Of a DNA stretch of 64,000 nucleotides, positions 10,541 to 43,221 are shown piece after piece. The DNA is taken from the IMG/VR virus record IMGVR_UViG_3300001373_000001, positions 1 to 64,000 of that record; one strand, 5' to 3'. Numbering within the stretch: position 1 is the stretch's first letter; each line of letters starts with the position of its first letter. This stretch comes from a virus. The position numbers were made by a program, and so were the translations under genes. Under the pieces are notes generated by a model that was not told the origin of the DNA, did not search any database, and saw nothing but the letters and a program-made list of their open reading frames with translations.

Positions 10541-10818
10541 GTGAATTAGAGGTATTATTATATTTTAAGGGGAAATGCATTAAAAGTTTAATATTGAGTA
10601 TTGCATCAGCTTTTCTAGTAACTAGTTCAAATTTAGTTATGATACTAAAATTATTAAATGATACTGAGTATAATAACAACCTAGTAATTGGATTAAAAAT
10701 ACTTAGCATAATAATAATAATACTTAATTTTTGGATTGCAATATTAAACATAAAATGTATAGAAGGATTAATTATAAGTATCTTAGATATAAACAAAGCT
10801 TTAAAAGAAATTAGATAG
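10537..10818 (+). CDS. Small two-pass membrane protein
   Basis: 93 residues translationally coupled to the preceding gene (ATGA overlap). Hydrophobic segments at about 18-36 and 50-70 with charged ends (cytoplasmic ends likely). Same general plan as the 12370 protein. Function unknown. Confidence 0.75.
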   Translation: MSELEVLLYFKGKCIKSLILSIASAFLVTSSNLVMILKLLNDTEYNNNLVIGLKILSIIIIILNFWIAILNIKCIEGLIISILDINKALKEIR

Positions 10819-24789: not shown

Positions 24790-25466
24790 TCTATCACCTC
24801 TTTTTTATTTAAATAAACCTCATTCAAACTATCCCAAATTGACACGTTATTTAGACAACTTCTCACAATCTCATTAGTGCAATTGTCTAATACCTTGTCA
24901 ATTCGCTTTTCTGAGTTGCAAATTTTCAAAATCTTAATTAACTTTTCCAATACAACGTTGCTACTTTTTTCGTTCTCTTTACTAGTGTTTTTAACCTTCA
25001 ACACTAGTGTACAAGTGCTTTTATCAAAAATCAAATTGGTTTCAATATTATTTGATATATTAAAATATCTATGTACAAAATCCAGAAAATTATTTATTTT
25101 GTACTCGTTATTAAATAACACATAATTTTTTATGTTTATCAAAATTGTGTATTCGCCTTTAATAGCATTGTTTAACGACTGCAAATAGTCTAATTTAAAA
25201 CTACTTGTAATCAAATTACTAGTACACATATTAACAGTATTGAATCGACTTAAAGTTATTTTCTTTTCTTTTAACTCATCAATTTTAATATCGCTTTTAT
25301 CATAGAACAACAAGCAACAATTAATAGTTTTTGCAGTACTTGAATTATATACAAAGTTATAAAACTCATTAAATTTAAGTTTCATACAATTTATACATAA
25401 CCCTTTAGAATCTCTTAATAGGTTTATTTCTTTTGTTATATTAATATTCTTACAATACATACACAT
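24786..25466 (-). CDS. Island protein with N-terminal zinc knuckle
   Basis: 226 residues starting MCMYCKNINI; Cys2-Cys5 and Cys24-Cys27 (CINCMKL) form a likely zinc-binding knuckle. The rest is alpha/beta without motif. Ribosome-binding site GAGGTG lies before the start. A nucleic-acid-binding role is possible from the zinc knuckle only. Confidence 0.75.
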   Translation of the reverse strand: MCMYCKNINITKEINLLRDSKGLCINCMKLKFNEFYNFVYNSSTAKTINCCLLFYDKSDIKIDELKEKKITLSRFNTVNMCTSNLITSSFKLDYLQSLNNAIKGEYTILINIKNYVLFNNEYKINNFLDFVHRYFNISNNIETNLIFDKSTCTLVLKVKNTSKENEKSSNVVLEKLIKILKICNSEKRIDKVLDNCTNEIVRSCLNNVSIWDSLNEVYLNKKEVIE

Positions 25467-25471
25467 AATAA

Positions 25472-25816
25472 TTACACCTCGTCGCTTTCATTTTTATTGC
25501 AATCGCTACAATAACAAGTAGTATACTTATTTACAACCTGTTTTAAATCTTTTAAGCTGTATAAAATATAAGTAGCTGTATAATTATTAATTGTGTGATT
25601 AATTTCAATTATATTGCCTTTAAGCGCTTCATTATAACAACGTGATTTAAAATGATTATGTATATTTTCATTAATCATTTTTTCAAAGTAAAGCATACTT
25701 TCATTTGTATTCATTTCAAACAATCTTTTTAAGCAATCTATTACTACTTTATCATTAGTTTTGTTTTGTTTCATAACTTTTAATATGTTTAGTACTTTTT
25801 CTTGATTTTTATTCAT
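25472..25816 (-). CDS. Island protein, helical, C-terminal cysteines
   Basis: 114 residues after AAGGTGG (the ribosome-binding site variant used repeatedly between 23 and 35 kb). Helical first 70 residues, then beta, ending with CYCSDC near the C-terminus that may bind metal with the acidic tail ESDEV. No family recognised. Confidence 0.7.
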   Translation of the reverse strand: MNKNQEKVLNILKVMKQNKTNDKVVIDCLKRLFEMNTNESMLYFEKMINENIHNHFKSRCYNEALKGNIIEINHTINNYTATYILYSLKDLKQVVNKYTTCYCSDCNKNESDEV

Positions 25817-26128: not shown

Positions 26129-26705
26129 TTATATTCACCTCACTACTTTCAAAATATTTTACTACCTCGTCAAACTTCACTAAACGCCTGTAATCTTGAT
26201 TGTAGAATTCTAAGTCACCTATATTTTTTGACATATTATATATCATATCAAGTGTATCTTGATAGAATACATATTCATTAATGCAATAGTAAATTTGACC
26301 GTCCGATAATTCTTTTAGTTTCAATACTTGTGTTTTAAACGATTGACCATTTTCACATTCAAAACGGTCTAAAAGTTCATAGTCAATTAAGTTTTCAATG
26401 TTTTCTAAACAATTATAAGTTCTATAATCCTTATACCTGTAATATTTCTCTGTGTTCAACTCATCAATAAAATCTTTAACGCTAATAATCCTATTTTCAA
26501 ATCTGACAAAGTATTTATCATTGTGAATACTTTCTAAGTCATCAAATATACTCATGTCGCATAATCCACTAATCAAGCGACTAACCTCATTCAAACTATC
26601 TTTTTCAAATAGTTGAAAATCAGCCGTAAACATCTGCAATACCCTATTTTCGTACGCTACAAAACTTTTATTATCATTAGTAGCGATTGTAATTTTTTTA
26701 CCCAT
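26121..26705 (-). CDS. First protein of the leftward island
   Basis: 194 residues starting at MGKKITIATN (26705), which has AAGGTGG upstream; a longer frame to 26819 lacks a ribosome-binding site. Alpha/beta content, many Tyr and Asp, no motif recognised. It lies about 270 bases from the promoter at 26984-27012, leaving a long untranslated leader. Confidence 0.75.
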   Translation of the reverse strand: MGKKITIATNDNKSFVAYENRVLQMFTADFQLFEKDSLNEVSRLISGLCDMSIFDDLESIHNDKYFVRFENRIISVKDFIDELNTEKYYRYKDYRTYNCLENIENLIDYELLDRFECENGQSFKTQVLKLKELSDGQIYYCINEYVFYQDTLDMIYNMSKNIGDLEFYNQDYRRLVKFDEVVKYFESSEVNIND

Positions 26706-26961
26706 TTTTTTAGTCCACCTTTTTATTATTAATATTAACTCAAAACGTGTAGTATTGCACGTTGTGAGCTTGTTTTTAATAACAACTAAGCGACTTATTA
26801 ACCTCAACCAACTATTCAATTATCAAAGTTCAACTAACATAGTGTTAGCGCTGTCTATAACTGTTATTACAACTATACGACTATAGATATCAGAACGATA
26901 TCAGAACATAGTCATAACTATAATAAATTGAAGAATGCTTGATGTAAACAAGTTGTGCTTG

Positions 26962-37352: not shown

Positions 37353-37613
37353 ATGAAAGAGTTAAAAGAGTTAAATATAAGATATGGATTCCAAATAGAA
37401 GAGTTTGGAATATATTATAAAATAACATCAAGATTTGATGTGTGGTTTGTCAAGAGATATGAATTTTATAATAATAGAATTCAACTCTATCATGGTAATG
37501 TATTTGGAAAGTGTAATATCCATAAACAGTTAGTTTGCCATGGATTAGAACACTTATTCTTATACATTAAATCCCATGATAGCAAGTATTTCTTAAAAGG
37601 AGGTGTTGCTTGA
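37353..37613 (+). CDS. Hypothetical protein
   Basis: 86 residues after AAAGGGG. Beta-rich start (IRYGFQIEEFGIYYKITSRF), one CNIHKQLVCHGLEH segment with Cys/His that may bind metal. The stop overlaps the next start by one base. Confidence 0.7.
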   Translation: MKELKELNIRYGFQIEEFGIYYKITSRFDVWFVKRYEFYNNRIQLYHGNVFGKCNIHKQLVCHGLEHLFLYIKSHDSKYFLKGGVA

Positions 37614-38332
37614 TGTTCGCAAAAGATATTACTGTAACCTCTTGGAATTATATGGTTGAAAAATATCTATATAATTGTAGCGCTGCCAAGAGAAGTTTAA
37701 CATTGAAGTTTCTAAAGCACATTAAAGATATTGATGTGCCTCTTGAAAATGTAGCACCGAAAAACATAGAGGAATTTTTAATTATGAATCAAAATAATAA
37801 CGTGGGACTTTTAAGATCGGCTATTAACCAACTTTTTAAGCATTTAAAACTATCAAATGTAGATATTAATATAGATATGAATGAAATAAAAAATGAAATT
37901 AAAAAAATGAAGTCTATAAAACCAAAGAAGAAGAAAATTACTATGAATGATAGTGCTTTTACTCAAGCTGAATTAGAATTGATACTAAGCCAAATACAAG
38001 ATATAACTAAAAATAGAGATAATTTAATTTTTAATATACTTTTTGATACTAAATTAAGTATAGAGGAAATTTTAAGCTTGAAGTTTGAAGATTTTGAAAA
38101 TAGGACATTGAACTATAAGAATAAAAAATATATACTTAGCAATAAGACTATCGAATACTTTGATATGAATTGTTATATAAACGAAAAGTATAAAACAATT
38201 TTATTCAAGTCATTTGAAGGAAAGCCATTAAATATGATTGCATTCCTAACTAGGATTAGAAAGATTAAAGATAACTTAGGCATAAAAGGTAGTCTAGTCA
38301 AGAAGTTAAATAGATATTGCGAGAGGAATTGA
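37613..38332 (+). CDS. Degenerate tyrosine-recombinase-fold protein
   Basis: 239 residues from ATG 37613, ten bases after AAGGAGG. Residues 1-100 look like the SAM-like core-binding domain (WNYMVEKYLYN, LRSAINQLFKHLKL). The catalytic part RDNLIFNILFDTKLSIEEIL, LKFEDFEN follows the family pattern, but the catalytic Arg of GxRxxE is replaced (TKLSIEE) and no HxxR or Tyr nucleophile is found. Probably a DNA-binding protein derived from a recombinase. Confidence 0.65.
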   Translation: MFAKDITVTSWNYMVEKYLYNCSAAKRSLTLKFLKHIKDIDVPLENVAPKNIEEFLIMNQNNNVGLLRSAINQLFKHLKLSNVDINIDMNEIKNEIKKMKSIKPKKKKITMNDSAFTQAELELILSQIQDITKNRDNLIFNILFDTKLSIEEILSLKFEDFENRTLNYKNKKYILSNKTIEYFDMNCYINEKYKTILFKSFEGKPLNMIAFLTRIRKIKDNLGIKGSLVKKLNRYCERN

Positions 38333-38337
38333 CTCAA

Positions 38338-39114
38338 ATGACTATAATACAAAAAATGAAAGCAGTGCTACAACTATTTGAATTCGATAAGGATTTTGAA
38401 AGTAAATTAACTGAATTATTCAAGACTAAGTATTCGGATATTATATCTGGAAAATTAGCTAAGGATATTATTAACTTCAATTTGAACTTTATAAAAACTC
38501 ATGATTTGGAATTAGTTCTAGATCATTTTAATATACAGAAATTAATTAACGAACAAGTAGTGCAAACCTTAAAATACAATTTAAGAAATTTAAATGATGC
38601 TGAGTTGGACAGCGAATTTGTATATATAATAAGCGCTTATAATCAGAGTAATATTATAGCTATACCTAATAAACTAATATCAGAAGCGCTAAACAATGAA
38701 TCTAATGCTATATTATCAACATATACTCCGAGAGAGGAATATGTAATTAACAAGAATGAAATATCAAAATCAAATAATGAAATTATAAAATCAAATAATA
38801 AAATTTCAAAATCAAAATTAAAAAATAAAACTTTTGAATCAAAAAGAGGAAGAAAGAAGGTAAATATAGAAGTTGATTATGAAATTTTAAATACAAAAAA
38901 CTCAATGGAAGAGTTTGAAAAATATAACATGGATGGAGTCGAAATAGCTTCAATGAAAGCTAGAGATGTCTATTCAGAGTATTTAAAATTTTGTAAATTA
39001 AATAAAATGTTTCCTCAAAACATATTAATTTTTGGTAAATACTTTACTAAAATATATGATGTAAAACAAGGAACTGATGGAACATATTATTTGAATGTTC
39101 AACTCAAAAAATAA
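38338..39114 (+). CDS. Hypothetical protein with C-terminal primase-associated wing-like domain
   Basis: 258 residues from ATG 38338, GAGAGGA upstream (at 38320-38327). Residues 140-175 are Ser/Lys/Asn-rich repeats (ISKSNNEIIKSNNKISKSKL) followed by KRGRKKVNIE, an AT-hook-like basic patch. The last 60 residues (DVYSEYLKFCKLNKMFPQNI, LIFGKYFTKIYDV) fit the winged-helix found at the C-terminus of D5-type phage primases. DNA binding is likely; no catalytic domain is seen. Confidence 0.65.
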   Translation: MTIIQKMKAVLQLFEFDKDFESKLTELFKTKYSDIISGKLAKDIINFNLNFIKTHDLELVLDHFNIQKLINEQVVQTLKYNLRNLNDAELDSEFVYIISAYNQSNIIAIPNKLISEALNNESNAILSTYTPREEYVINKNEISKSNNEIIKSNNKISKSKLKNKTFESKRGRKKVNIEVDYEILNTKNSMEEFEKYNMDGVEIASMKARDVYSEYLKFCKLNKMFPQNILIFGKYFTKIYDVKQGTDGTYYLNVQLKK

Positions 39115-39116
39115 AT

Positions 39117-39992
39117 ATGAATATAATGAAACAGTATGAAAACTATAATGGCAGAAAGAATAATAGATTAGACTACTTTGTAAGTAGTTTTGATAAGTTT
39201 GTTAGTGAAAATAAAAATACAGATATGAAAGAAGTAGACTTTAGTTCATTTTTAAAAGAAACTACATCTAATAGAACCTTGATGAATAATATTAGCGATG
39301 CGAATTTCTTTTTAGAATATATTGGACTCAGTAAAATGAATACAAAAGAGATTGATAAAGACAAATTAATAAAAACTGACTGTTCTGGAATACTTCATAT
39401 AGATCAATATAAACTGTTATTAAAGCAACTTACAGTTCATGATGATTTTGGAAAAAGGGTTAATAATAGAGATAGAGTATTGGTTCAAATGGCTTGGTGG
39501 GGATTTAAGACTATGGAAATTGCTGAAATAAAACGGTATGATATAGAATTCGTAAGATCAAATATGACTAAAATAAAGCTTCCAAATGGAGTTATAAGAA
39601 CTATAACAGATGAGAGCTTTAGAGAAGATTTAGAATTATATCTACAAGATAGGCATATATTACAATTCCATAAAAATCCAACTGTTGAAGTTCCGTTATT
39701 AATAACGGATAATTTGATTGCAAAAGTTGACAATGCATTAAGTAGAAATGGATGTGATTCTGTTAATGTATTAACGAATATTCTTAAAAATGCTCTATAT
39801 AATAATTATGTAGAGATTGATGGAATAAACTTAGTATCTCTAAATAACCAAAGTATATTTAAAAGTAGAATAGTGTATTTATTATCACTTGGTTATACTG
39901 GAGCAGATATTCAAAAAATCCTTAGTATCAAAAGTCAAGGATTTATCTGGCTGAAAAGATTAGTTCCTTTGATATATAAAAATAGAAAATAA
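39117..39992 (+). CDS. Degenerate tyrosine-recombinase-fold protein
   Basis: 291 residues; ATG at 39117 or 39126, no clear ribosome-binding site, two bases after the previous stop. RDRVLVQMAWWGFKTMEIAE followed by IKRYDIEF has the family layout of an integrase core, and SIFKSRIVYLLSLGYTGADI with QKILSIKS matches the HxxR-helix region, but catalytic Arg/His/Tyr residues are not conserved. Together with 37613 and 38338 it makes a coupled three-gene unit ended by the terminator at 40003. Confidence 0.65.
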   Translation: MNIMKQYENYNGRKNNRLDYFVSSFDKFVSENKNTDMKEVDFSSFLKETTSNRTLMNNISDANFFLEYIGLSKMNTKEIDKDKLIKTDCSGILHIDQYKLLLKQLTVHDDFGKRVNNRDRVLVQMAWWGFKTMEIAEIKRYDIEFVRSNMTKIKLPNGVIRTITDESFREDLELYLQDRHILQFHKNPTVEVPLLITDNLIAKVDNALSRNGCDSVNVLTNILKNALYNNYVEIDGINLVSLNNQSIFKSRIVYLLSLGYTGADIQKILSIKSQGFIWLKRLVPLIYKNRK

Positions 39993-40002
39993 TTGAATAT
40001 AT

Positions 40003-40031
40003 AAGAGTAGCTTAATACTACTCTTTTTTTT
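40003..40031 (+). terminator. Intrinsic terminator
   Basis: AAGAGTAG (40003-40010) and CTACTCTT (40018-40025) with a 7-base loop and a run of T to 40031. Confidence 0.85.
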
Positions 40032-40089
40032 ATGTTTGTGATATAGTTAAGTAATATATTTTACACAATTTATATAAATGAGGTGTTTT

Positions 40090-40446
40090 ATGAATTTTCA
40101 AATACAAGATATTGAAAAATACACTATATTAAAAAGCTTCATAATAACTATATCTAATCTAAATACTGATGGAGGAGCTTGTCTAGAATCTAATATATTA
40201 GATAATCAATTCAAATGCTGCTTTAATGATAACTTGCAAACTATTAATATTTGTGAGGGTGCTAATTTATTTGCAATTAAAAACATTTTTGATTACATTT
40301 CATCATTAGGATATGAAAACTTAAGCTTTAACCCTTCTAAAATCAGTCATTATAATTCCAATTTATTGAAGTTAAATAAAGATTGTATGCTACTTAATAA
40401 TCGCAAAATATTCAACTTAATTCTTGACAAGGTTAGATTAAACTAA
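40090..40446 (+). CDS. Hypothetical protein
   Basis: 118 residues from ATG 40090; GAGGTG at 40080-40085 fits this start and overlaps the alternative ATG at 40078. Contains four Cys but no pairs typical of zinc ribbons. The last codons contain the -35 box of the promoter for the RNA upstream of the Ro-type gene. Function unknown. Confidence 0.7.
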   Translation: MNFQIQDIEKYTILKSFIITISNLNTDGGACLESNILDNQFKCCFNDNLQTINICEGANLFAIKNIFDYISSLGYENLSFNPSKISHYNSNLLKLNKDCMLLNNRKIFNLILDKVRLN

Positions 40447-40452
40447 TATAAT
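40424..40452 (+). promoter_or_regulatory. Perfect consensus promoter upstream of the Ro-type gene
   Basis: TTGACA at 40424-40429, exactly 17 bases, TATAAT at 40447-40452. Predicted start about 40459, inside a 295-base gap without an open reading frame. Only two such perfect promoters were found in the window (the other is at 29054). Confidence 0.85.
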
Positions 40453-40458
40453 TGTATT

Positions 40459-40718
40459 GAACTCAATTAGTTTTACATATAGTAGATACGAACAGCAAAC
40501 AAAATTAAAAGATTTTGGATCTTAAAGTGTATCTAGAAACCAAATGGAATGACATTGGTGTAGTGCGAATGGATTTTTTTGTGTCTTGTAGTAGTCACAT
40601 ACAGCAATCAATACAGAAGAATTAATAGTTCGATTCTATTACGCACTATCTTGTTAGGCAATAATAATTATTCACCTATAACATACACATATATAAGCTT
40701 AGAGTAATCTAGGCTTAT
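40459..40718 (+). ncRNA. Candidate Y RNA with tRNA-like part, upstream of TROVE gene
   Basis: From the promoter at 40424-40452. Elements in order: TAGATAC (40483-40489) paired with GTATCTA (40529-40535) around a small AAGAT-ATCTT hairpin; hairpin CCAAATG/CATTGG (40540-40558); then 88 bases closed by TAGTGCG (40561-40567) and CGCACTA (40642-40648), with a T-arm-like hairpin TAATAG-TTCGATT-CTATTA directly before the 3' strand. The loop TTCGATT fits the tRNA T-loop consensus. The anticodon arm is not canonical. GCGAATGG at 40565-40572 resembles the CGA-containing Ro-binding strand of Y RNAs. A further 11-bp hairpin at 40693-40718 ends the region. Confidence 0.6.
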
Positions 40719-40741
40719 AATTTCAGAATGGAGTTGATTAA

Positions 40742-42241
40742 ATGTTGAACTCTTTAGAAAGTCTTACAAATTCAGAAATAACTAAAACTCAAAATGGTGC
40801 AAATGCTTATTCTACAACTGATAATAGTATTGTAGATTTCTTTTTTAGTGCTTCAAGTATGCGAAAAATGAATAAAGATGAAATCATATATCTATTTGCT
40901 AAGGCATTAGAATGCGATCCACTTATTGCAATCAAAGTTTTATTTTATGTAAGGGATATTAGGGAAGGCTTAGGAGAGCGAAGAATATTTAAAATTTTGA
41001 TAAATTATTTAATAACTTTTAAACCTCAGTACATAGTAAACAACTTAAAACACATTCCAGAGTATGGAAGATGGGACGATTTGACATGTCTATTAACTTG
41101 TATGAATGTAGATATAGTTAAAGATGTTGTGAAGATAATCGATACTCAATTAATCAAAGATGTTCAATCTAAAAATCCAAGCTTATTAGCTAAATGGATG
41201 CCAACAGAAAATTGTAGTAATAAAGAACGAATTAAATTAGCTCGAATTCTAATGAATAAATTAGGATTATCTAATATAGTTTATAGAAAAATAATAACTA
41301 ATATTAGAAAGAAGCTTGATTTAATTGAAACCAAACTTACTAAAAAAGACTATACTTCTATAGACTATAATACAATACCTTCAATTGCTAATAAAAAGTA
41401 CCATAAAGCCTTTAAACGTAATGATACTATAAAGTACGAGCAACACTTAGAGAATGTCTTAAATGGCAAGGAAAACGCTAAGGTGAATGCATCTGTATTG
41501 TATCCGTATCAAATTGTATCTGAGATACTTAAAAGATTAGATTTCTGTAGACCATTTGATGAACAATTCAAAGTTTATTCTCAAGTAATGTGGAATAACC
41601 TTAAAGATATTCAAATTGATGAAGAATTAAATACTCTTTGTGTAGTAGATACATCTGGGTCAATGACTAGTGATAACGCTGTTCCTTTGTCAAGTGCGAT
41701 AGCCTTGGCTTTATTATTCTCAAGTAAATTTAATGGAGTATTTAAAGACTGTTTCATTACTTTTTCTAATAAACCAAGATTTGTTAAAATACCAACAGAA
41801 TTAGATATTGTTGGTAAAGTTCAATATATTATGAAATATGAAGAAGTTGCTAATACTAATATTGAAGCTACTTTTGATTTATTATTAAAGACTGCTATAG
41901 AAAATAAATTAAAACAATCAGATATGCCAAATAAAATAATAATAATATCTGATATGGAATTTGATAACGCTACAGAAGATAAAGCTACTGATGCTTTGTT
42001 TTTAATAATTAAAAATGAGTGGAAATATTATGGATATGAGCTACCTTATATCACGTTTTGGAATGTATCAACTGAAACTGATAAAACCCATTATCCAGTA
42101 AAAGAATCTGAATATGTCCAATTCGTTAGCGGACACTCTCAAAATATATTCAAATCAATTGCAACTAATAAGTTTCAAACACCAATGGAAACTATTCTTG
42201 AAATTATAAATTCTGATAGATATTCAAATATAACAATTTAA
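40742..42241 (+). CDS. TROVE-domain (Ro60/Rsr-like) RNA-binding protein
   Basis: 499 residues after TGGAG at 40729-40733. The N-terminal 270 residues form the TROVE HEAT-repeat ring: GANAYSTTDNSIVDFFFSAS, LIAIKVLFYVRDIREGLGER, RRIFKILI, IPEYGRWDDLTCLL. The C-terminal half is a von Willebrand A domain with an intact MIDAS (Asp303, Ser305, Ser307 in VDTSGSM). Bacterial Ro proteins bind misfolded RNAs and Y RNAs and tether PNPase or other nucleases for RNA decay and stress recovery. Phage-encoded copies are known in mycobacteriophages. Here a tRNA-like RNA lies immediately upstream. Confidence 0.9.
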   Translation: MLNSLESLTNSEITKTQNGANAYSTTDNSIVDFFFSASSMRKMNKDEIIYLFAKALECDPLIAIKVLFYVRDIREGLGERRIFKILINYLITFKPQYIVNNLKHIPEYGRWDDLTCLLTCMNVDIVKDVVKIIDTQLIKDVQSKNPSLLAKWMPTENCSNKERIKLARILMNKLGLSNIVYRKIITNIRKKLDLIETKLTKKDYTSIDYNTIPSIANKKYHKAFKRNDTIKYEQHLENVLNGKENAKVNASVLYPYQIVSEILKRLDFCRPFDEQFKVYSQVMWNNLKDIQIDEELNTLCVVDTSGSMTSDNAVPLSSAIALALLFSSKFNGVFKDCFITFSNKPRFVKIPTELDIVGKVQYIMKYEEVANTNIEATFDLLLKTAIENKLKQSDMPNKIIIISDMEFDNATEDKATDALFLIIKNEWKYYGYELPYITFWNVSTETDKTHYPVKESEYVQFVSGHSQNIFKSIATNKFQTPMETILEIINSDRYSNITI

Positions 42242-42312
42242 TAAGAGTTTTTTTTACACTCAAGTTTTAGAATATAAATCTACCTATACCATTTACGAAA
42301 GGAAAATTTAAA

Positions 42313-43221
42313 ATGAATAAAGATGAATTACAACAATGTAAGAATTATTTTTCTATAGCTGGAATAGTTAAAGGATTAGAAAATCCATCTAAAAATCAAG
42401 GCTTCGAGATAGGAACAATCAAAAATGGGTTGTCTAAAGGTAAGCAATACAAGTCTATTAAATTCAAAGTACAAACATCTCCAGAAAATACTATACCTGT
42501 AGAATGCTTTGGAATGGAACTTGACAACGCTTATTTCTATTCTAAAACATTAAAAAAGACTATTAAAGCGCCTTGGGACAAACGAAATTCACTATCCAAA
42601 GAAGGCTATTTATTAATTAAACCTTCATTTGATTTGGTTCAAGAATTACACGATGAACTAAGAGATGGAGAATCAGTTACTATAACTGGAGAAATAGACT
42701 ATCAAGAATATAAAGTTAATGATGAGGTTAAGAAGAACACTAAATTTATAATTAAATCTGTTAAAAAAGCTACTCATGAAATAGACTTTGAACATCCAGA
42801 ATTCAAAGAAAAGAATAAGTTTAATCAAGATTTAGTTGTTGATGATATTTCTGTAGATGGAGACTCTATATTCATCAATGGATTAATTATAGACTTCAAA
42901 AAAGAGATTAAAACAGCTTGTTTTGAAGTTGATACAAAAAAAGTTCATAAACTATTTACTAAGAAAGTTATGTCATTAAAATTTGGTGATTTTATGAGGG
43001 TTAATGGCATTATTAACTATAAAGTTATCCAAGAAGAAGTTGATGGCGAATGGGGTACTATATTTATTAATGACTATAAAAAATCTCTAGAAGTATTATC
43101 TGTAGATGAAAAGTCATTTGAGCAAGGAAAGTATAAACAAGCAGACTTATATGGAGAAGATGAATCCGATGAGTTTGAAGAACAATTTGACGATAATGAG
43201 TTACCATTCTTAATTGATTAG
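42313..43221 (+). CDS. ssb: Single-stranded DNA-binding protein (phage type)
   Basis: 302 residues after GAAAGGA. Two beta-rich segments (about 10-150 with FKVQTSPENTIPVECFG and VTITGEIDYQEYK; 165-260 with IFINGLIIDFK and MRVNGIINYK) look like two OB-folds. The tail is very acidic and ends in DDNELPFLID, which resembles the DDxxPF tip that SSB uses to bind helicases and nucleases. First gene of the replication cluster, three bases from the Sak4-like gene (which starts a little inside). Length is almost double bacterial SSB, as in some phages. Confidence 0.75.
   Translation: MNKDELQQCKNYFSIAGIVKGLENPSKNQGFEIGTIKNGLSKGKQYKSIKFKVQTSPENTIPVECFGMELDNAYFYSKTLKKTIKAPWDKRNSLSKEGYLLIKPSFDLVQELHDELRDGESVTITGEIDYQEYKVNDEVKKNTKFIIKSVKKATHEIDFEHPEFKEKNKFNQDLVVDDISVDGDSIFINGLIIDFKKEIKTACFEVDTKKVHKLFTKKVMSLKFGDFMRVNGIINYKVIQEEVDGEWGTIFINDYKKSLEVLSVDEKSFEQGKYKQADLYGEDESDEFEEQFDDNELPFLID

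Follow-up and report, generated by a model that had tools for sequence, protein, structure and literature searches.

What RNAs accompany a Ro60-like protein encoded by a phage, and what might such a ribonucleoprotein (RNP) do during infection? We addressed this question at a locus in the first 64,000 nucleotides (nt) of IMG/VR record IMGVR_UViG_3300001373_000001, a 118-kb record of a virus of bacteria; these 64,000 nt are referred to here as the window. At positions 40424 to 42241, a consensus promoter is followed by a non-coding stretch and by a gene for a DUF2828/DUF7788 protein. The original prediction for this locus, made from the sequence alone, was a Ro60/TROVE protein with a single tRNA-like RNA upstream, together forming a candidate Ro-Y RNP of the YrlA type. 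Our analysis indicates that the locus most likely encodes a phage Ro60 RNP in which the partner RNAs have a common Ro-binding module and present pieces of tRNA.

A DUF2828 protein with a predicted Ro60 fold

The 499-residue protein matched the Pfam families DUF2828 (PF11443, 4e-34) and DUF7788 (PF25043, 9e-41), with a sub-threshold match to VWA, and was matched by PHROG 850, annotated as "RNA-binding protein" (6.5e-115). An AlphaFold (AF2) model built with 40 aligned relatives had a predicted local distance difference test score (pLDDT) of 85.8 and a predicted TM score (pTM) of 0.82. In a Foldseek search with this model, PDB matches 1 to 12 were all Ro60/TROVE structures (best E value, 4e-8; TM score, 0.53), and they included 9kop as well as the Ro60 of Thermus phage phiLo (9l5y), animal Ro60, and D. 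radiodurans Rsr. A profile search of PDB sequences with the protein reached a best E value of only 0.096, and the assignment to the Ro60 fold therefore rests on structure. The metal ion-dependent adhesion site (MIDAS) of the vWA domain was intact (D303-S305-S307, T372, and D404), and its residues were invariant in alignment A2. The predicted structure supports the interpretation that the protein combines a ring of the Ro60 type with a vWA domain. It shares this ring-plus-vWA architecture and the intact MIDAS with Ro60/Rsr, including the phiLo protein, but belongs to a different sequence family, DUF2828/DUF7788, and is only 9 to 15% identical to solved Ro60 structures. The predicted Ro60 identity thus held for the fold, whereas the Pfam TROVE model found no match in the protein. 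Relatives were present in 681 phage records, with identities of up to 41%; a scan of viral contigs using the window protein alone as the query found no relative.

A stem-ACAGCAA module accompanies phage DUF2828 genes

Repeated copies of a short module were found in the gaps around DUF2828 genes in phages of Bacillus, Listeria, Enterococcus, Staphylococcus, Mycobacterium, Campylobacter, and Aeromonas and in Felix O1-like (E. coli) phages. The module consists of a 7- to 8-bp stem, 1 to 2 nt, the box ACAGCAA, and a G after the 3' strand of the stem, with a consensus of approximately 8 bp (WAGRCRCW/WGYGYCUW-G plus N-ACAGCAA). We analyzed 80 IMG/VR DUF2828 loci, none of which had been used in the discovery of the module, by collecting all perfect 7-bp stems with the partner strand 25 to 140 nt downstream and counting the 7-mer located two bases past the 5' strand. 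ACAGCAA was the commonest 7-mer: on the gene strand it occurred 128 times, in 54 of the 80 loci, whereas a single locus had it on the other strand. The runners-up were shifted forms of the same box, and the first unrelated 7-mer, GCTCAGT from the tRNA D arm, was seen in 16 loci. When an exact stem and the 3' G were required, 139 elements remained in 56 loci; 104 of them lay upstream of the gene and 35 lay downstream, and neither the gene itself nor the opposite strand contained any. Scrambled motifs gave 0 to 5 stemmed cases; the one-base variant TCAGCAA gave 15 and, because of this difference, may be tolerated. These data demonstrate that the association of the stem and ACAGCAA with DUF2828 loci is not due to chance, and the strand counts point to a strand-specific link with the gene.

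Model R1, in which ACAGCAA is invariant by selection, gave matches at E values of ≤0.1 in all 19 DUF2828 phage records searched, usually near the gene; in phiM12 and an Erwinia phage, matches lay away from it. Phages T4, SPO1, K, phiKZ, and T5 have no DUF2828 gene and gave no R1 match at an E value of <0.1, and a second model, R2, for RNAs in tRNA order, found in them only matches of tRNA length scoring at most 44 bits.

Two other observations were made in these phages. In Sinorhizobium phage phiM12 (locus L015, 1522 to 1661), a 20-bp inverted repeat, far longer than the usual stem, surrounds ACAGCACC. In phage T5 (L108, 285 to 645), the annotated stable RNAs, RNAI, RNAIII, and the tRNA-like RNA1, are without ACAGCAA.

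Two predicted module-bearing RNAs upstream of the window gene

The perfect promoter named in the original prediction was confirmed, with TTGACA at 40424 to 40429, a 17-nt spacer, and TATAAT at 40447 to 40452. It is the sole 12/12 match within 40000 to 42500; promoter-like sites as a class were not enriched around the locus (17 seen versus 18.2 expected from shuffled sequence). Approximately 283 nt of non-coding sequence separates the promoter from the gene. The tRNA-like RNA that had been predicted there is present, but it is one of two candidates, designated RNA 1 and RNA 2 (Table 1), which end 205 and 93 nt upstream of the gene, respectively. Both carry a stem of approximately 8 bp and ACAGCAA (40483 to 40536 and 40580 to 40607), which is likely to be the Ro-binding signature. 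The strand GCGAATGG, previously suggested to bind Ro, is not conserved in relatives and was rejected in favor of this conserved feature.

RNA 1 comprises an 8-bp stem (TAGATACG/TGTATCTA), an A, the box, a payload of approximately 29 nt, and the conserved G after the 3' strand. R1, which was built without the window sequence, scored it at 44.8 bits (E value, 3e-9) in an unfiltered search of 2.8 kb, and it was the best R1 match in the 118-kb record (E value, 1.3e-7). A window-wide search with default filters missed RNA 1, and the unfiltered search recovered it. A possible Gln(UUG)-type anticodon arm in its payload competes with a different hairpin, which is favored in the minimum free energy (MFE) fold.

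RNA 2 agrees with the predicted tRNA-like fold. TAGTGCG (40561 to 40567) pairs with CGCACTA (40642 to 40648) as a 7-bp acceptor stem, the total length is 88 nt, and the T stem, (T)AATAG/CTATT(A), closes the loop TTCGATT at 40629 to 40635. The reported absence of a proper anticodon arm was also borne out: no cloverleaf with D and anticodon arms was found in 40561 to 40648, and ARAGORN, which could have exposed RNA 2 as a real tRNA, called no tRNA gene in the window or in the remainder of the record. The position of the anticodon arm is occupied by the stem-ACAGCAA hairpin, in which the conserved G is kept after the TGTGTCTT strand. R2, also built without the window sequence, scored RNA 2 at 31.3 bits (E value, 1.8e-7 for 701 nt and 3.1e-5 for the whole record), and the runner-up place scored 14.3 bits. 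The combination of acceptor and T arm arose in 3 of 5,000 dinucleotide shuffles of the region and was found at only one other place in the window, 10556 to 10645, inside coding sequence. The MFE fold of RNA 2, a long hairpin, was set aside because 27 relatives covary for the tRNA-like fold. RNA 2 resembles a tRNA in that its acceptor stem and T arm follow the tRNA order, and its relatives also retain the D arm and, in some cases, the anticodon arm; the family differs from tRNAs in that the anticodon position is taken up by the Ro-stem hairpin and ACAGCAA.

Table 1. Features of the DUF2828 locus in the window
Feature	Position	Strand	Basis
Sigma-70/sigma-A consensus promoter, TTGACA-17-TATAAT	40424-40452	+	Sequence; transcription start predicted at ~40459
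RNA 1, short Y-like RNA, stand-alone hairpin	40483-40536	+	Model R1; fold z = -4.8
ACAGCAA box of RNA 1	40492-40498	+	Commonest 7-mer across the 80 loci outside the discovery set
Possible Gln(UUG)-type anticodon arm in RNA 1, AAGA-TTTTGGA-TCTT	40509-40523	+	Sequence; tentative
RNA 2, tRNA order, no D arm; acceptor 40561-40567/40642-40648	40561-40648	+	Model R2; sequence
Ro-stem hairpin of RNA 2, TGTGTCTT-GTAG-TAGTCACA, 6/8 pairs	40580-40599	+	Sequence; homologous hairpin of relatives covaries
ACAGCAA box of RNA 2	40601-40607	+	Sequence; R2 alignment
T arm of RNA 2, TAATAG-TTCGATT-CTATTA	40623-40641	+	Sequence; R2 alignment
9-bp hairpin ahead of gene, AAGCTTAGA-GTAA-TCTAGGCTT	40697-40718	+	By eye; no clear U tract
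DUF2828/DUF7788 protein, 499 aa (amino acids), helical-repeat ring plus vWA domain	40742-42241	+	Pfam; AlphaFold model; PHROG

The module occurs in three layouts

Across phages, the module is embedded in RNAs of three layouts. The first consists of short hairpins of approximately 45 to 80 nt. The second consists of permuted, YrlA-like RNAs in which the T arm, acceptor, and D arm lie within the stem; two such RNAs from Enterococcus phage PEF1 scored 45.9 and 35.7 bits against Rfam YrlA (E values, 2.4e-9 and 2.3e-6), below the cut-off of 69. The third consists of RNAs in tRNA order, with normal acceptor, D, and T arms; in these RNAs, a closed stem hairpin occupies the anticodon position and precedes ACAGCAA. 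We selected 27 RNAs of this last layout on ACAGC, the T arm, and the acceptor, the Ro hairpin not being a criterion. The Ro hairpin was nevertheless 80% paired in these RNAs, with two-sided changes at all 8 pairs. R2 found approximately 50 tRNA-order RNAs with scores of more than 54 bits, distributed over more than 25 loci, among them those of Aeromonas phages phiAS5 and LAh_6; ordinary tRNAs reached up to approximately 45 bits.

Several elements depart from these layouts. In three (L007, 934 to 1058; L036, 924 to 1048; and L065, 4521 to 4637), the payload resembles a normally ordered tRNA whose acceptor stem may be present or absent, and these may constitute a fourth layout. In Bacillus phage FADO (L002, 2105 to 2225), a circularly permuted tRNA with a two-base acceptor loop lies inside an ACAGCTA element. 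Enterococcus phage EF1 (L006, 2792 to 2850) has, directly 5' of an ACAGCAA element, a tRNA-like RNA in which the acceptor, D arm, and T arm are present but a 7-nt link replaces the anticodon arm.

Payloads resemble parts of tRNAs

Among 113 short RNAs, hairpins with 7-nt loops were in excess (z score, approximately 6.5). The loop CTNNNAA on at least 4 bp occurred in 26 of them, compared with 0.4 in shuffles, and control loop patterns occurred at most twice. With a broader pattern, and leaving T-arm hits aside, the commonest anticodon was UUU (9 cases), followed by GUU (5 cases). In the tRNA-order RNAs, removal of the insert rebuilt a 5-bp anticodon stem with U33 in 13 of the 27 (shuffle mean, 2.3), for example, CT/CGC-CTTTTAA-GCGAG in L021 and ACG/GC-ATGTTAA-GCCGT in L083. 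These counts show that the payloads are often tRNA-like and that many include genuine anticodon arms. D-loop-like payloads, found post hoc in just 5 of the 113 short RNAs, were set aside.

Relationship to YrlA and other proposed Y RNAs

YrlA (RF02553) has the order T arm, acceptor hairpin, and D arm on a basal stem that is common to the long permuted phage forms, and it is encoded beside the Ro60/Rsr gene, just as the window RNAs adjoin the DUF2828 gene. The phage forms, however, fall under the Rfam cut-off (45.9, 35.7, and 18.7 bits), and YrlA in the mycobacterial genomes examined has a different basal stem and lacks ACAGCAA. A covariance search with the YrlA model had been proposed as a check; the Rfam search of the window, YrlA included, returned no match. 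The permuted tRNA domain of YrlA is missing from RNA 2, which has normal order and no D arm. Thus, a Ro60-type RNP with a tRNA-mimicking RNA is well supported, whereas assignment to the YrlA type was not upheld, since the RNA is not permuted. We know of no YrlA counterpart of the short and tRNA-order phage forms.

TROVE proteins have been noted in some jumbo phages, and cellular TROVE has been described as an RNA repair platform with a tRNA-like partner (PMC7824862). According to PMC12282133, a homologue in Listeria phage CKA15 was found in purified virions (20 peptides), unannotated non-coding regions near the tRNA genes were the most transcribed, Y RNAs were suggested, and Chen et al. (2014) are cited for mycobacteriophage Y RNAs. 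These proposals pair a phage Ro-like protein with a nearby non-coding RNA, as here; in the text examined, neither a common motif nor a short or tRNA-order form is described. In that study, the phage RNA region of highest abundance, CKA15 26,236 to 26,727 (L020, 3237 to 3728, minus strand), appears to be a different kind of non-coding RNA and, with no ACAGCAA inside, was rejected as a family member; an ACAGCAA array lies nearby in CKA15, at approximately 25,260 to 25,560 on the minus strand. Permuted phage YrlA RNAs are already known. The motif, the short and tRNA-order forms, and the anticodon payloads were not described in the literature we searched, which did not extend to the main Y RNA papers; the family of short and tRNA-order phage RNAs with a common module is widespread and apparently undescribed.

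Other features of the locus

Terminator prediction did not report a terminator at the hairpin at 40697 to 40718, which may have a processing or regulatory role. Farther upstream (37610 to 39992), the window contains three consecutive open reading frames (ORFs), the first of which matches integrase (PHROG 1; Pfam, 2e-5); the second and third have no family match.

Possible functions of the RNP

We propose that the strong promoter would drive a precursor containing both RNA 1, the short hairpin, and RNA 2, the tRNA-order RNA in which the module stands at the position of the anticodon arm. The DUF2828 ring would bind the recognition module common to the partner RNAs, and the variable payloads carried on the module, often tRNA-like or resembling a tRNA arm, would be turned toward other enzymes. 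The displayed tRNA parts may occupy tRNA-acting enzymes, such as host anticodon nucleases, so that real tRNAs would be spared during infection. This is the function that we favor, although tentatively.

Ranked second, and also only a possibility, is the classical Y RNA role, in which the RNAs tether or gate the Ro ring for polynucleotide phosphorylase (PNPase) or another nuclease and alter RNA decay in the infected cell. It fits the Ro60 fold of the protein, the weak but significant match of the permuted forms to YrlA, and the finding that bacterial YrlA tethers Rsr to PNPase (PMC8394870). However, the permuted T-acceptor-D domain, described as the part that binds effectors, is absent from the short RNAs and from both RNAs of the window, and anticodon-arm payloads lie outside the classical model. 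Such a role is compatible with a common Ro-binding module.

We consider it unlikely that the module behaves like an intron or a processing element, with excision and ligation restoring functional tRNAs from genes interrupted in the anticodon stem. The anticodon stems rebuilt by deletion of the insert would be expected from splicing, and an RtcB gene lies near DUF2828 in Listeria phages; in MT837221.1, RtcB (L003, 610 to 1905; PF01139, 4e-59) is directly upstream and overlaps the start of the DUF2828 ORF. However, of the 20 DUF2828 phage records searched, 1 contained RtcB, and the window phage lacked it (other RNA ligases were not searched for), and RtcB-dependent splicing was therefore rejected as a general explanation. 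Moreover, neither the short RNAs nor those of the window contain a tRNA that splicing could restore, no arm could be rebuilt in about half of the tRNA-order RNAs, and a kept anticodon arm also fits an unspliced three-way junction.

It is highly improbable that the elements are DNA-level repeats or general hairpins of tRNA arrays with no tie to the Ro60 protein: several loci do lie within tRNA arrays, and a few elements are distant from the gene (W12 and W13), but the elements are strictly biased to the gene strand, their stems show compensatory changes, they occur in the window phage, which has no tRNA gene, and they are missing from the five phages that lack DUF2828 and have tRNA-like matches.

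Several points weigh against the interpretation of the locus as a Ro60 RNP displaying tRNA parts. RNA 2 lacks a D arm and shows no clear anticodon arm, two positions of its Ro stem are mismatched, and its score of 31.3 bits falls within the range of ordinary tRNAs under R2. Approximately 24 of the 80 loci have no exact-stem element, and the abundant CKA15 RNA region, the only one for which PMC12282133 gives coordinates, lacks ACAGCAA. The anticodon-loop and D-loop tests were devised after examples had been seen. Finally, alignment A3, on which R1 is based, was chosen for perfect stems, making its pairing and covariation partly circular; the 7-mer counts, scrambles, strand and position counts, and covariation of the tRNA-order RNAs are free of this circularity.

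Implications for phage biology

The role of Ro60 RNPs in bacteria and phages is still unclear, and a compact, searchable candidate signature makes the question testable in standard laboratory phages. It is conceivable, if speculative, that many large phages encode a Ro60 RNP whose interchangeable RNAs each offer single parts of a tRNA, chiefly anticodon arms, for example, Lys(UUU), as bait that neutralizes host anticodon nucleases and whose Ro protein is possibly delivered with the virion. Anticodon-arm payloads would tie Ro60 to the conflict between phage and host over tRNA, and an RNP acting as anticodon nuclease bait would, if real, be a new form of anti-defense RNP.
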